A stretch of 64,000 nucleotides of DNA, taken from Phialocephala subalpina (taxonomy: Eukaryota; Ascomycota; Leotiomycetes; Helotiales; Mollisiaceae). Position 1 is the first letter of the stretch. Each line of letters opens with the position of its first letter. The stretch is taken from the NCBI GenBank assembly GCA_900073065.1, contig FJOG01000026.1, forward strand, positions 369,235 to 433,234, given 5' to 3'. The notes under the pieces were generated by a model. The model did not search any database. It had not been told where the DNA came from and saw only the letters and a program-made list of their open reading frames with translations. A program made the translations under genes and the position numbers. Below are positions 12,901-40,088 of the stretch, one piece after another.

Positions 12901-13470
12901 CCCGCCAACCGTCAAGCAGCTGCGTATGGCATCGGTGTTGCTGCACACAAGGGTGGACCACAATGGTCACAATTCCTTGGCCCCGCGACAGAATTGCTCT
13001 TCCAAGTCACGCAATTCCCTAACGCAAGAGGAGACGACGACGTCTATGCCACCGAGAATGCCTGTGCAGCCATTGCTAAAGTCTTGCACTACAATCCATC
13101 GAGTGTCCCCAATCAACAACAAGTCATTGCGCAATGGATTGATACTCTGCCGGTCGTAAATGATGAGGAGGCGGCTCCGTACGCTTACGCCTATCTCGCA
13201 CAGCTCATCGATCAGTAAGTTTCCAACGCGGCTTATATCAAATGCTCTACTAACATCAATAGACAAAATCCAGCTGTTGTTTCACAGGCCGGCAAAGTCT
13301 TCATCTTCATCGTTCAAGCTCTCGAGGCCGAGACATTGCAGGGTCAAACTGCCACAAGAATTGTTGCAGCCGCCAAGACGCTCCTTCAAGGTGCAGGAAT
13401 CGATGCATCTGCTCTCCTACAGCAGATGTCGCCGGAAACACAACAGATTGTTCGTCAGTTTTTCGGTTAA
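9917..13470 (+). CDS. PSE1: Importin beta-3 / karyopherin Pse1 (Kap121)
   Basis: This karyopherin-beta imports ribosomal proteins, transcription factors and other cargos through the nuclear pore in a Ran-GTP dependent way. Six exons give 1096 aa, close to yeast Kap121 (1089 aa): 9917-10099, 10160-10379, 10437-10612, 10660-11091, 11143-13214 and 13263-13470. All five introns are 47-60 nt, and several have CTAAC/TACTAAC branch sites. Importin-N HEAT repeats start at MSVLPADVHNELTQLLDALQ. Central HEAT repeats include DPHPRVRWAGCNALGQM and EPRVQAHAAAALVNFCEEA. An acidic stretch rich in E/G at about residues 810-830 precedes the C-terminal HEAT repeats ending QQIVRQFFG. No lesions are seen. Confidence 0.95.
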
Positions 13471-18439: not shown

Positions 18440-20129
18440 GCCCCTTCTCCAGGAGTGGGCCTCTGAGTCTGGATAATGGATTTGGAGATATTGTGATGAT
18501 ATGAAAAATAAGAGTGGAGGTAGCATGAAAAGAAGGGGCAGGACCGAGCCGAGACCAAAAATATGTGGGAGGTAAATTTGTCGGTGGTAATGTTTGTGTA
18601 CGACGACTCAAAGTCATGGGAGGCAAATCTCATCTCGTGTCAGGGTTATGGGAACGTAAAGGCGACAGAACAGTAAAGGGGCAGGAGGCAATTTTCGATC
18701 GAACGGATATGAGTTTTCAATAATGACGCAACGATTCAATGGCGCCAGGCGCTTCAAGGAGCGAAAGGAAGGGTTTTTACTTCACTTCAAATTTTCATAC
18801 GGCTATGGAAAGAATGGCTGGGGGCGGGTTTTTGCTGGAATATGGTTTGGAGCGGGTGCGGGTGCTGGTAGAGGCTGGTTTCGGTATCATACCTGAACTT
18901 GTAGTGTGAGGGATGAAATACGATGTTCTTGTGTGTTTTTATGTTTGATGATGGGATGTGATGTGAGGCGATGTGTATGTGACCCGGGTAATGAGGGAGG
19001 CATATAATTTGAAGGAGGTCGTGGGGAGATATTGTGGTGAGCNNNNNNNNNNNNNNNNNNNNNNNNNNNNNNNNNNNNNNNNNNNNNNNNNNNNNNNNNN
19101 NNNNNNNNNNNNNNNNNNNNNNNNNNNNNNNNNNNNNNNNNNNNNNNNNNNNNNNNNNNNNNNNNNNNNNNNNNNNNNNNNNNNNNNNNNNNNNNNNNNN
19201 NNNNNNNNNNNNNNNNNNNNNNNNNNNNNNNNNNNNNNNNNNNNNNNNNNNNNNNNNNNNNNNNNNNNNNNNNNNNNNNNNNNNNNNNNNNNNNNNNNNN
19301 NNNNNNNNNNNNNNNNNNNNNNNNNNNNNNNNNNNNNNNNNNNNNNNNNNNNNNNNNNNNNNNNNNNNNNNNNNNNNNNNNNNNNNNNNNNNNNNNNNNN
19401 NNNNNNNNNNNNNNNNNNNNNNNNNNNNNNNNNNNNNNNNNNNNNNNNNNNNNNNNNNNNNNNNNNNNNNNNNNNNNNNNNNNNNNNNNNNNNNNNNNNN
19501 NNNNNNNNNNNNNNNNNNNNNNNNNNNNNNNNNNAGAGAAGTTTGAGTTTGGAGGTAAGGAGGATATGCTGAGGCGCGAGGTGCGGAGGTACGGCCGTGC
19601 AAAGGTGTTGTGCTCGAGTTGAGTCGACAGTCATTTTGCCCCTTTCATTCGGAGAGAGCGGAAAGGACCGAGAGATCGAGAAGAGATGGAACTCATTTCT
19701 TTTTTTTTAGAAGCCTGTGGAACTGAAGCACCCTCTCGCCTCCGCACAGCTCAATCTCAGGTAAAGAGGTTTGAGAAATCAAACCTCAACTTCAACCCAC
19801 TCGCTTCCATAGCCTTTCCCCCTTTCTCGCTTAACCACCAATTCGATCTCAACCTACGAATCACTAAACAGAATGCAAACGCCAAAATCCAGATAGATTT
19901 TCCTTCTACTGGCCTGGAAACAGTCAGAACCTTCTTTTGTTGGTCCTTTGGCGTGGAGGTTCAAGACTTCGTGGCTGGTGACTTTTCAGCTCGAATTTAG
20001 CTTTAAACCTTGTGGCCACGCGAACACCGGCTCTGGATTTTGAGAAAGAAGGGATGCGATCTGGAGTCAAACACTGATTGAATGGATTTTTATTATCGTA
20101 TCAACGTAGGCAAGTATTGACGAAGTGTT
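18440..20129. other. Downstream region of WC-1 with assembly gap
   Basis: No gene is supported. The stretch contains purine-rich sequence downstream of WC-1 and the N gap. Open frames that run across the Ns are not informative. Confidence 0.6.
19043..19534. other. Assembly gap (492 Ns)
   Basis: An unresolved run of N. The true length and content are unknown. Confidence 1.
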
Positions 20130-25590: not shown

Positions 25591-25736
25591 TGAACAGAGT
25601 GGGACTCGAACCCACGCCACTTTCGTGACCAGGAAATTTGTGCTAAGAAGACCTTAACCTGGCGCCATAACCTATGAATGTTAGTATTGTATATTCAATA
25701 TCGGAAATCGTGGCTTACCAACTCGGCCATCTGTCC
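25591..25736 (-). tRNA. tRNA-Leu(AAG) with anticodon-loop intron and a spliceosomal-type intron in the D-loop
   Basis: Read on the minus strand, the acceptor GGACAGA pairs with TCTGTTC (one G-T), with discriminator A at 25591. The D-stem is GCC/GGC. The anticodon stem CCAGG/CCTGG encloses TTAAGG...T with anticodon AAG (25655-25653). The long variable arm CAC-GAAA-GTG is typical of leucine. The T-arm is GTGGG-TTCGAGT-CCCAC. A 17-nt intron (25651-25635) sits after position 37 and contains CTT, able to pair with the anticodon. A further 47 nt (25718-25672) interrupts the D-loop between G18 and G19. Without both insertions the tRNA is 82 nt and fully canonical. Box A is complete up to the insertion point and box B (GGTTCGAGTCC) is intact. 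An oligo-T terminator follows. If the D-loop insertion is not removed the gene would be non-functional. Confidence 0.9.
25672..25718 (-). other. Spliceosomal-type intron inside the tRNA-Leu D-loop
   Basis: The insertion starts GTAAGC, carries a perfect TACTAAC branch site (25686-25680) and ends CATAG nine nucleotides after the branch A. Its 47-nt length matches mRNA introns nearby (46-60 nt in SDS23 and PSE1). Removal at exactly GT-AG restores the D-loop GAGTTGGTTAT and the D-stem. Confidence 0.85.
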
Positions 25737-26328
25737 TGTTGTGTTGTATGCATTTGCTTAACTAAACCTATCAACTCCACCATTCCAAAAAGTAACTACC
25801 CGGGGTTTTGCCTCGCTACCGCCAAACTCTATCACGTGGCCTGGTTCTGCCGTGGCAGAGAAATCCCTACCGCCCGCCAAAAGTCATTAATATTATAATA
25901 ATTATATATATATTTTAGTCAAGATGCAGAAGGGTAGTGGGCTTATTGTCGAGGGAAAGTGCACGATACACGGAAGCATAACTGAGGTCGGAAAGCTCTG
26001 AGGTGGGAATGGAGCAACTCTTTTCTTCTCTGTAGCGTGGAGCGATGAGTCTCTCAATATTGTATTGTAAAAGCTTGTTATCAAGCAACCGCTCGTTGTG
26101 ACGATTAAACCTTCAGTCTCAGTATACGAATGAACCTTGGAAGCACACGATGTGTTCGTCAATTTTGGACGTGTAATGCGCGATACCCAGGTGCTTGCTC
26201 ACGAGCGACACCGGCCACGGGCTTGCTGGTTAATGCAGACATTAGACAGCGGAGATGATCAGCATTGAATTGATGCACTTAGTATTGTTTGTTGACTACA
26301 ATAACAAATAGCGCGTAAAGACAGACCC
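25737..26328. other. Intergenic, no recognisable gene
   Basis: About 590 bp upstream of tRNA-Leu and downstream of the kinase-like gene; AT-rich near 25890-25915. No supported feature. Confidence 0.5.
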
Positions 26329-39210: not shown

Positions 39211-39926
39211 TTGGATGCTTGACTGGCCTGTGTCATGTAGCTCTGAGATTGTGCTTGTTTGTCAAGAGTCGAGAGATCGTGGACCGAGCAAAAGATTTCC
39301 AGCCACCAACATCGCATCACGTGAGGCACCACTGACTCAACGCATTTTCCCCTGTGAATCTCCCTTGGGTTTTGGTACAAGTTGAGAAAGTCAGTTTTTG
39401 ACGCACAGCTGTTTAAACAGGAATACGAATACATGGAGTGAGCAAGACTCAAAATGTGAAGTGAGCTAAGCTCCAAGGCTTTGCCGCACATGCCACCAAG
39501 CAATTTTCCAGGGAAGATGGATTGGAGCACCGTGAATGGTAGAATAAGAACAGCCTGATATTCGTAGAAAAGATACAGGATGGAGAATATGGTAGGTGAT
39601 CCTCGATTGAAGCATAACACAAAAGTGGATGTCCAAGGACGAGATGAACGTTGACGGCCAGACGAAAGCTTAAAAAGCAAAAGAATATCGTAGATCCAGC
39701 AATAGCAGATAATAGGAAATTGAGCGTGTGATAGAGGTTACAGAGATGCTAAGATTTGGAAATTGGAAAAACAAGGGAAGGAAACAAAAGGTGAAAGAGG
39801 AAGGAAGCGAACGACTCCGTTTGTCCCGTGCCCCACATGCCCGGTCAGGTAACAGCACCTTTAACTCACCTCCCCAAACTGCTTTATAGATTTAAATAGG
39901 CACAAATCCTGCATCAAATTCAAAAA

Positions 39927-40059
39927 GAAGGCTTGGTGTAGTGGTAGCATGTCTGATTCCAGCGTTGCGGAAATCCAGATGGTCATCGGTTCAGTAAGTT
40001 TCTATCGTCATAACAGTAAAGGCTCTACTAACAACGGCAACAGAATCCGATAGTCTTCA
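39927..40059 (+). tRNA. tRNA-Trp(CCA) (alternatively Gly-TCC) with anticodon-loop intron and a spliceosomal-type intron in the T-loop
   Basis: The acceptor GAAGGCT (39927-39933) pairs with AGTCTTC (40052-40058; one G-T), with discriminator A at 40059. The D-arm is GTGT-AGTGGTA-GCAT. The anticodon stem is TCTGA/CCAGA (one A-C mismatch) with loop TTCCAG, giving anticodon CCA at 39959-39961; shifting by one base gives TCC. A short intron of about 11-13 nt (from 39963) lies after position 37. The variable loop is TGGTC. The T-stem ATCGG/CCGAT is split: after TTCA come 50 nt (39994-40043), then AAT. Spliced, the T-loop is the canonical TTCAAAT and box B becomes GGTTCAAATCC. Oligo-T terminators follow. 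The tRNA structure is firm; isotype is less so. Confidence 0.85.
39994..40043 (+). other. Spliceosomal-type intron inside the tRNA T-loop
   Basis: The 50-nt insertion begins GTAAGTTT, has a perfect TACTAAC branch site at 40026-40032 and ends GGCAACAG. It splits box B of the Pol III promoter between GGTTCA and AATCC. Precise GT-AG removal restores a five-base-pair T-stem and seven-base T-loop. Confidence 0.87.
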
Positions 40060-40064
40060 ATTCA

Positions 40065-40088
40065 TTTTCTTTTTGTTTTTTTTTTTTT
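40065..40088 (+). terminator. Pol III oligo-T terminators
   Basis: Runs of 4, 5 and 13 Ts begin 6 nt after the tRNA 3' end. Confidence 0.8.

Follow-up and report, generated by a model that had tools for sequence, protein, structure and literature searches.

Spliceosomal introns are taken to belong to RNA polymerase II (Pol II) transcripts, and mRNA-type introns are also present in the U6 snRNA genes of fungi other than fission yeast. In fission yeast (Schizosaccharomyces pombe) itself the U6 gene carries an mRNA-type intron that is spliced (PMC10484740), which, like the tRNA introns described here, places an intron of the spliceosomal type inside a Pol III transcript; that case, however, concerns one snRNA gene whose product is itself part of the spliceosome and for which reverse splicing has been proposed as the origin, whereas here there are dozens of cases distributed over many tRNA isotypes. 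Ascomycete rDNA also contains spliceosomal introns, and one from a lichen is removed from Pol I transcripts in yeast (PMC8527467); these share with the tRNA introns both the spliceosomal type and a non-coding host transcript that is not made by Pol II, but involve rRNA and Pol I rather than tRNA and Pol III. The tRNA genes of Cyanidioschyzon merolae likewise have interrupted A and B boxes, an upstream TATA-like promoter and multiple introns, although theirs are bulge-helix-bulge introns of 11–69 bp that are cut by the endonuclease, in contrast to the GT..branch site..AG introns reported here, which mostly have a pyrimidine at -3 (PMC3978253). Fission yeast tRNA genes, similarly, have an upstream TATA box and recruit TBP, but the accessible part of that report mentions no such introns (PMC4600332). 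Finally, the canonical eukaryotic tRNA intron, located between nucleotides 37 and 38, co-occurs in many of the same genes, that of the window included, but has one fixed place and endonuclease signals and lacks the GT..AG ends and branch site of the ectopic introns. Searches of the open-access literature turned up no description of nuclear tRNA genes interrupted by spliceosomal introns; a review on tRNA introns contains no word beginning with 'spliceosom' (PMC4090602), and the accessible parts of PMC12730881 and PMC11782384 contain nothing on the subject. The intron type is familiar; the class of host gene and the scale are unfamiliar.

The locus that led to this set lies in a 64,000-nucleotide stretch of Phialocephala subalpina DNA (contig FJOG01000026.1, positions 369,235 to 433,234), hereafter the window, which includes a run of N at approximately 19041–19536. 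Over 691 aa of the importin beta-3 gene in the window, identity is 96% to Mollisia scopiformis and 90% to Diplocarpon rosae, the second-ranking named match, with further Helotiales below these, which places the host among the helotialean ascomycetes close to Mollisia. A Trp(CCA)-like tRNA gene occupies positions 39927-40059 of the plus strand. Read directly, its first part runs GAAGGCT-TG-GTGT-AGTGGTA-GCAT-G-TCTGA-TTCCAG, an 11-nt anticodon intron, and T-CCAGA-TGGTC-ATCGG-TTCA; its second part consists of 50 nt, GTAAGT...TACTAAC...GGCAACAG, followed by AAT-CCGAT-AGTCTTC-A. Exon 1 (39927..39993), delimited from the sequence and from its likeness to an intron-free Trp-CCA gene found elsewhere in the genome (L021), comprises the 5' half of the acceptor (39927-39933), the D-arm (39936-39950), the anticodon arm with its 11-nt insert after nucleotide 37 (39952-39979), the 5' half of the T-stem (39985-39989) and T-loop nucleotides 54–57, TTCA (39990-39993). 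The 11-nt insert (39963..39973) is the usual short anticodon intron that an earlier note on this DNA had recognized, at 37|38 and of the endonuclease type, with the purine at -3 opposite U32. The 50-nt spliceosomal-type intron (39994..40043, GTAAGT...CAG), defined by the sequence, trial deletions and the wider intron set, separates T-loop nucleotides 57 and 58 and contains the branch-site consensus TACTAAC (40026..40032), whose likely branch A, at 40031, is 12 nt from the intron 3' end. Exon 2 (40044..40059) contributes T-loop nucleotides 58–60, the 3' halves of the T-stem and acceptor, and A73. An upstream TATA-like Pol III element, TATAGATTTAAATAGGCA (39885..39902), is located 42 nt before the gene and matches TATADATTTAAATAARCA at 17/18 positions, while the T-runs at 40065..40088, the first at +6, are a likely Pol III terminator. 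The insertion into the T-loop leaves box B interrupted in the DNA, as the earlier note had it.

Removal of the 50-nt insert produces the T-arm ATCGG-TTCAAAT-CCGAT, with 7/7 acceptor and 5/5 T-stem pairs formed between the two exons. Both stems were restored by only 2 of 2700 trial deletions of 30–69 nt, namely the GTAAGT..ACAG deletion and its 1-nt neighbour. None of the 757 other GT..branch..AG candidates in the window (two tRNA loci left out) gave a tRNA across the junction, and neither did any of 999 candidates in the reversed window or 755 in six shuffled windows. Because these candidates gave no junction tRNA, a chance origin of the fit between insert and tRNA is not a serious option. The initial description of a tRNA with 50 nt between T-loop positions 57 and 58 is thus upheld, its coordinates included, and so is its argument that such precise restoration makes chance very unlikely. 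The same T-loop point, 57|58, is split in an Asp-GTC gene (L030). ARAGORN found no tRNA in the window and, with introns allowed, returned a mis-typed Leu gene and missed the present one; Rfam reported the Leu gene only, and permissive Rfam settings gave sub-cut-off matches only at this locus. The 50-nt intron gave no second match in the genome in a lossy search, and a 29-nt piece of the 5' exon occurs there once at ≤3 mismatches.

The earlier note had left the isotype between Trp-CCA and Gly-TCC, to be settled by a scan of the spliced sequence. That scan, performed with ARAGORN, gave Gly-TCC, and taking CCA as the anticodon (nucleotides 34–36, 39959..39961) makes pair 31-39 an A.C mismatch. 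Nevertheless, Trp-CCA is favoured, because the anticodon region GATTCCAG and the T-loop TTCAAAT are identical in this gene and in L021, position 26 is present (as is U33), and the anticodon intron has at -3 a purine that faces U32. Given the A31.C39 mismatch and the lack of a close paralog, the gene could be decaying, and the intron-free L021 may be the functional Trp-CCA copy.

The window holds another tRNA gene with such an intron, making the present one the second, as first described. This tRNA-Leu(AAG) gene, on the minus strand at 25591..25736 (Rfam RF00005, 34.4 bits; called after splicing), combines an anticodon intron with a 47-nt D-loop intron of the spliceosomal type, GTAAGC...TACTAAC...TAG (25672..25718), and here it is box A that is interrupted in the DNA. 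Its junction is present in an intron-free paralog (L027) with 0 mismatches in 24 nt, and a TATA-like element (25755..25772) matches at 14/18 positions at -36.

Across the window's own assembly (68.1 Mb, 119 contigs; the genome of the species has been described as 69.7 Mb with 91 tRNA genes, PMC5148876), we count 41 spliceosomal-type introns in 29 tRNA genes, 12 of which have two; the count is a lower bound, since only top-ranking candidates are scored in the genome search. The introns are distributed over the acceptor, D-arm, anticodon-stem, variable region and T-arm. None was seen in the anticodon loop, but the set does not speak on that loop, because any candidate falling inside the stretch that ARAGORN assigned to the anticodon intron was excluded by design. 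Querying with mature tRNA exons gave 50 matches, of which several were incomplete or split in two, and GT..branch..AG splicing candidates at these loci yielded intron-bearing Phe, Thr, Ser, Asp, Ile, Trp, Leu and initiator Met genes. The box B word GGGTTCGANTCCC, which by its nature cannot sample T-loop introns, occurs at 43 genomic places against 6 for its reversed control; by our own reading 35 of the 43 are tRNA genes, 14 with spliceosomal-type introns and 21 without (L100, L103, L113 and L117 among the latter are tRNA-like calls of unsure isotype), and the other 8 are not, one being a tRNA pseudogene. Four further intron-bearing genes were reached via the promoter element (L157, L169, L172, L192) and a Gln-TTG gene through its exons alone. 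Twelve yeast tRNA sequences gave 0 matches when included in a query, all 8 matches falling in its genome-derived part. Several spliced calls (L016/L036, L029/L052 and L065, and alternatives for L021/L058/L056/L067 and the window Leu gene) were discarded as artefacts, either because the tRNA was satisfactory without splicing or because a different parse was preferable, and a second Leu-CAA intron and a long insert in L140 were left out of the count. Two Ser genes (L046 and L192) have an acceptor-stem intron in common, after nucleotide 6, and three genes with acceptor introns, Arg-TCT (L023), Thr-CGT (L067) and iMet (L068), gave only partial hits, 6-65, in the Rfam genome search.

The intron ends are GT..AG in 40/41 and GC..AG in one (GCAAGT, in the Gly-GCC gene L106); the 5' site is GTAAG in 23/41, and the 3' ends are TAG (19), CAG (18) or AAG (4). 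Near the 3' end, YTRAY is found in 40/41 and CTAAY in 32/41, with the branch A 9–14 nt from the end in 34/35 introns of an earlier 35-intron set, and 40/41 are 45–60 nt long, the remaining one measuring 81 nt. Random GT..AG segments of the same lengths contain YTRAY, CTAAY and GTAAG at frequencies of 0.11, 0.021 and 0.014, respectively, a comparison in which the counts are partly built in, as most of the introns come from scans requiring such signals. Likely mRNA introns at the ends of window open reading frames (11092, 13215 and 59319) look like those of the tRNA genes, the one at 13215, in a likely importin-beta gene, ending in CTCTACTAACATCAATAG. Group I and group II introns were considered and set aside: no such Rfam family passed the cut-off in the window, and 45–81 nt is too short. 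Paralog junctions, being less subject to this bias, are stronger evidence than motif counts. In 21 of 34 introns the exon edges are joined, at ≤2 mismatches, in an intron-free paralog (six of these rest on one Ala gene), and the intron-free Pro-AGG gene L161 provides the junction for four more, in two Pro genes, bringing the total to 25/41. The spliced Thr-AGT gene (L053) equals an intron-free Thr gene (L002) in every letter. After splicing, the acceptor has 7/7 pairs in 22/25 genes and the T-stem 5/5 in 23/25. The 40 further examples of like signals and length in the assembly lend strong support to the original proposal, in which the insertion was read as a spliceosomal-type intron within a tRNA gene. 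In two Gly-GCC paralogs (L106:160-209 and L114:162-211) a shared anticodon-stem intron has splice points 1 nt apart, with GC..AG ends in L106 and GT..AG ends in L114, likely a one-base intron slide.

Could these be ectopic introns of the archaeal or algal type, with GT..AG incidental, which the tRNA splicing endonuclease recognizes by relaxed bulge-helix-bulge motifs and cuts, as it does in Cyanidioschyzon? In favour of this, the introns of that organism break the A and B boxes in the same places, its promoters are TATA-like and its genes have up to three introns (PMC3978253). Tests on helices also fail to separate the classes: all 4 pairs of the central helix form in 10/39 ordinary and 5/34 ectopic introns, a weak test that depended on where ARAGORN had put the introns, and the bases at -6 and -3 can pair in 14/18 and 22/34, respectively. 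By the endonuclease rule, a purine at -3 pairs with nucleotide 32 (the A-I pair). Among the ordinary anticodon introns, which are fixed at 37|38 and of which 18 of 19 tried could be placed, 16/18 have this purine and 14/18 show the pair, whereas the purine is present in 3/34 ectopic introns (4/41 in the final set). The ectopic introns of the set are located outside 37|38, in the acceptor, D, anticodon-stem, variable and T regions, and their branch-site motif and near-constant length of about 50 nt have no role in the endonuclease pathway. We therefore regard cleavage by the endonuclease as very improbable, and return to spliceosomal removal as the favoured reading.

The comparison of paralogs also bears on whether the split genes are used. 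Three Ala-AGC genes have two introns each, at the same points, and identical mature exons, while the identity of their intron interiors is 0.47–0.62 vs 0.45–0.51 for shuffled sequences (one pair, a-b, is 2–3 standard deviations above shuffled, the other pairs nearer to it). A Gly-GCC pair and a Phe pair follow the same pattern, with flanks that have drifted as well, and in a Pro-AGG pair the exons are 0.98 and the intron interiors 0.62–0.63 identical, the latter figure having no shuffled control. The two Pro genes differ at acceptor pair 5-68, one having U-A where its partner has C-G, which is a compensatory change spanning two introns. Conserved exons and drifted introns are the pattern expected if the spliced product is used, and these paralog sets, all of other isotypes than the window gene, point to purifying selection on the mature tRNA with the intron interior drifting. 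If, instead, the split genes were dead, with intron-like inserts in pseudogenes and all the work done by intron-free copies, the intron-free paralogs of many isotypes, Trp-CCA (L021) included, would be explained, as would the A31.C39 mismatch of the window gene and the existence of some 5'-truncated, changed copies. Copies without the 5' exon are mostly changed elsewhere too (L053 plus strand, L057 and L061), a Phe copy (L060) being unchanged. However, intact exons next to drifted introns and flanks, stems restored in nearly all 25 genes and promoters kept speak against this explanation, as does the failure of a DNA search of the assembly, itself lossy, to find intron-free copies for Glu-TTC, Leu-CAA, Leu-CAG, Gly-CCC and Thr-CGT; we consider it improbable that the genes are dead. 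As separate observations, the tRNA copies lacking their 5' part are L053:304-362 (plus strand), L057, L060, L061 and L094, of which all but L060 look dead, and the Thr copy at L053:304-362 has an apparent intron 3' end like that of its intact neighbour some 300 bp away.

Glu-TTC is the clearest of these cases. At ≤3 mismatches its 3' exon matches the assembly once, exactly and within L098, a gene with two introns (one match was likewise obtained with the reversed control). Because an anticodon with C34 is unable to read GAA, this gene is probably essential. The search was lossy, in that the split Gly genes L106 and L114 escaped an exon query and the Glu-TTC gene itself escaped a paralog query, so more intron-bearing copies may exist; intact similar ones should have shown, and a divergent Glu-TTC gene is possible.

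Shared positions with drifted interiors suggest that the intron gains are old. This weighs against a recent spread of introners or another mobile intron family into tRNA genes, which would otherwise account for the many genes hit and for the recurrence of some positions; moreover, 14 of the 41 introns were queried genome-wide and each matched itself only, again in a lossy search. We hold a recent spread to be most unlikely, an ancient introner origin being possible. The introns may have arisen by insertion at the DNA level or by reverse splicing into a tRNA and subsequent gene conversion, and these genes offer a natural system for asking how introns arise by either route, because the insertion sites are short, conserved and often accompanied by intron-free paralogs.

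As for transcription, an element resembling TATADATTTAAATAARCA (≥13/18) is located 28–72 nt upstream of 24/25 intron-bearing genes (the element had served to find one of the 25) and before 49/53 tRNA calls without such introns (a few of these mis-called), whereas the fraction of random 90-nt windows reaching 13/18 is 0.012. A run of four or more T follows 22/25 intron-bearing genes in the stretch examined (the Leu-CAA entry is a wrong parse), mostly within the next 52 nt or less. Pol III transcription of the intron-bearing genes is likely, because nearly all of them keep the upstream element. One could also imagine that the genes form part of longer Pol II transcripts, from which the tRNAs are released after splicing, which is compatible with the sequence and would agree with spliceosomes normally acting on Pol II RNA; but the TATA-like element and closely following T-runs, in an upstream layout shared with tRNA genes that have no such introns, make this improbable in our view, and Pol III remains the polymerase of choice. 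The TATA boxes upstream of fission yeast tRNA genes recruit TBP (PMC4600332), and in Cyanidioschyzon the interrupted A and B boxes coexist with upstream TATA-like sequences, no homologs of TFC1 or TFC3 having been identified according to the accessible text (PMC3978253). On the strength of these two parallels, tolerance of broken boxes A and B is likely due to the upstream TATA element. The earlier note had asked how a gene with a split box B is transcribed, by a tolerant Pol III, an alternative box or another route, and the likely answer is the TATA-like box at -42, which is common to most tRNA genes here. An exon-by-exon search of the assembly for the TFIIIC B-block domain PF04182, run without a eukaryote control and positive in 8/14 prokaryotes, gave 0 candidates, which may reflect divergence, splitting by introns or a real loss as in Cyanidioschyzon.

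Taken as a whole, the account that we consider highly probable from these sequence comparisons is that the window gene is a nuclear tRNA gene with a U2-type spliceosomal intron in its T-loop, and one of a large set. Pol III would start at the upstream TATA-like element, which is able in principle to place TFIIIB and so to make the broken box B tolerable, and would transcribe the split gene as far as the T-run. Judging from the signals, the major spliceosome would then remove the 50-nt intron and rebuild the T-arm, the transcript ends would be trimmed, and the tRNA endonuclease and ligase would take out the ordinary anticodon intron. Making many of the tRNAs of this fungus thus seems to need the mRNA splicing machine in addition to the tRNA one. 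A broader proposal, to which we lean only slightly, is that introns have spread through the tRNA set in this fungal lineage to the point where translation depends directly on the spliceosome, some isoacceptors (Glu-TTC, for GAA codons, being the best case) existing only as genes with two spliceosomal introns and one endonuclease intron, transcribed by Pol III from an upstream TATA and hardly requiring boxes A and B. If true, the spliceosome would routinely handle short, structured Pol III RNAs, tRNA genes could do without intact boxes A and B, and genes of this kind would be missed by standard tRNA finders.

The TATA-like element also marks many loci other than tRNA genes. Genome-wide, TATADATTTAAATAARCA has 617 sites against 208 for its reversed control; among the 100 of the 617 that were listed, 14 were already known and 79 of the other 86 were examined, about ten of the 79 reading as tRNA genes, including the four with introns mentioned above. 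Many of the short TATA-led loci (L121–L160 and L162–L200) are neither tRNA genes nor members of an Rfam family, and Rfam gave one hit, a tRNA, over 40 of them. One family (L131/L137/L145/L152/L165) has variants of CCGGCCAG...GGCTTAGTGGTTCAGGTCAC in common, and L144/L146 and L148/L151/L181 form further families, so that the loci look like a large set of novel Pol III-type RNAs. As to the U6 gene in this assembly, seven matches exceed the cut-off and each spans the family model from end to end. Three TATA-led loci (L130, L149 and L184) contain branch-site-like CTAAC stretches, preceded in L130 by GTAAGT, and spliceosomal introns may be present in other Pol III-type RNAs too.
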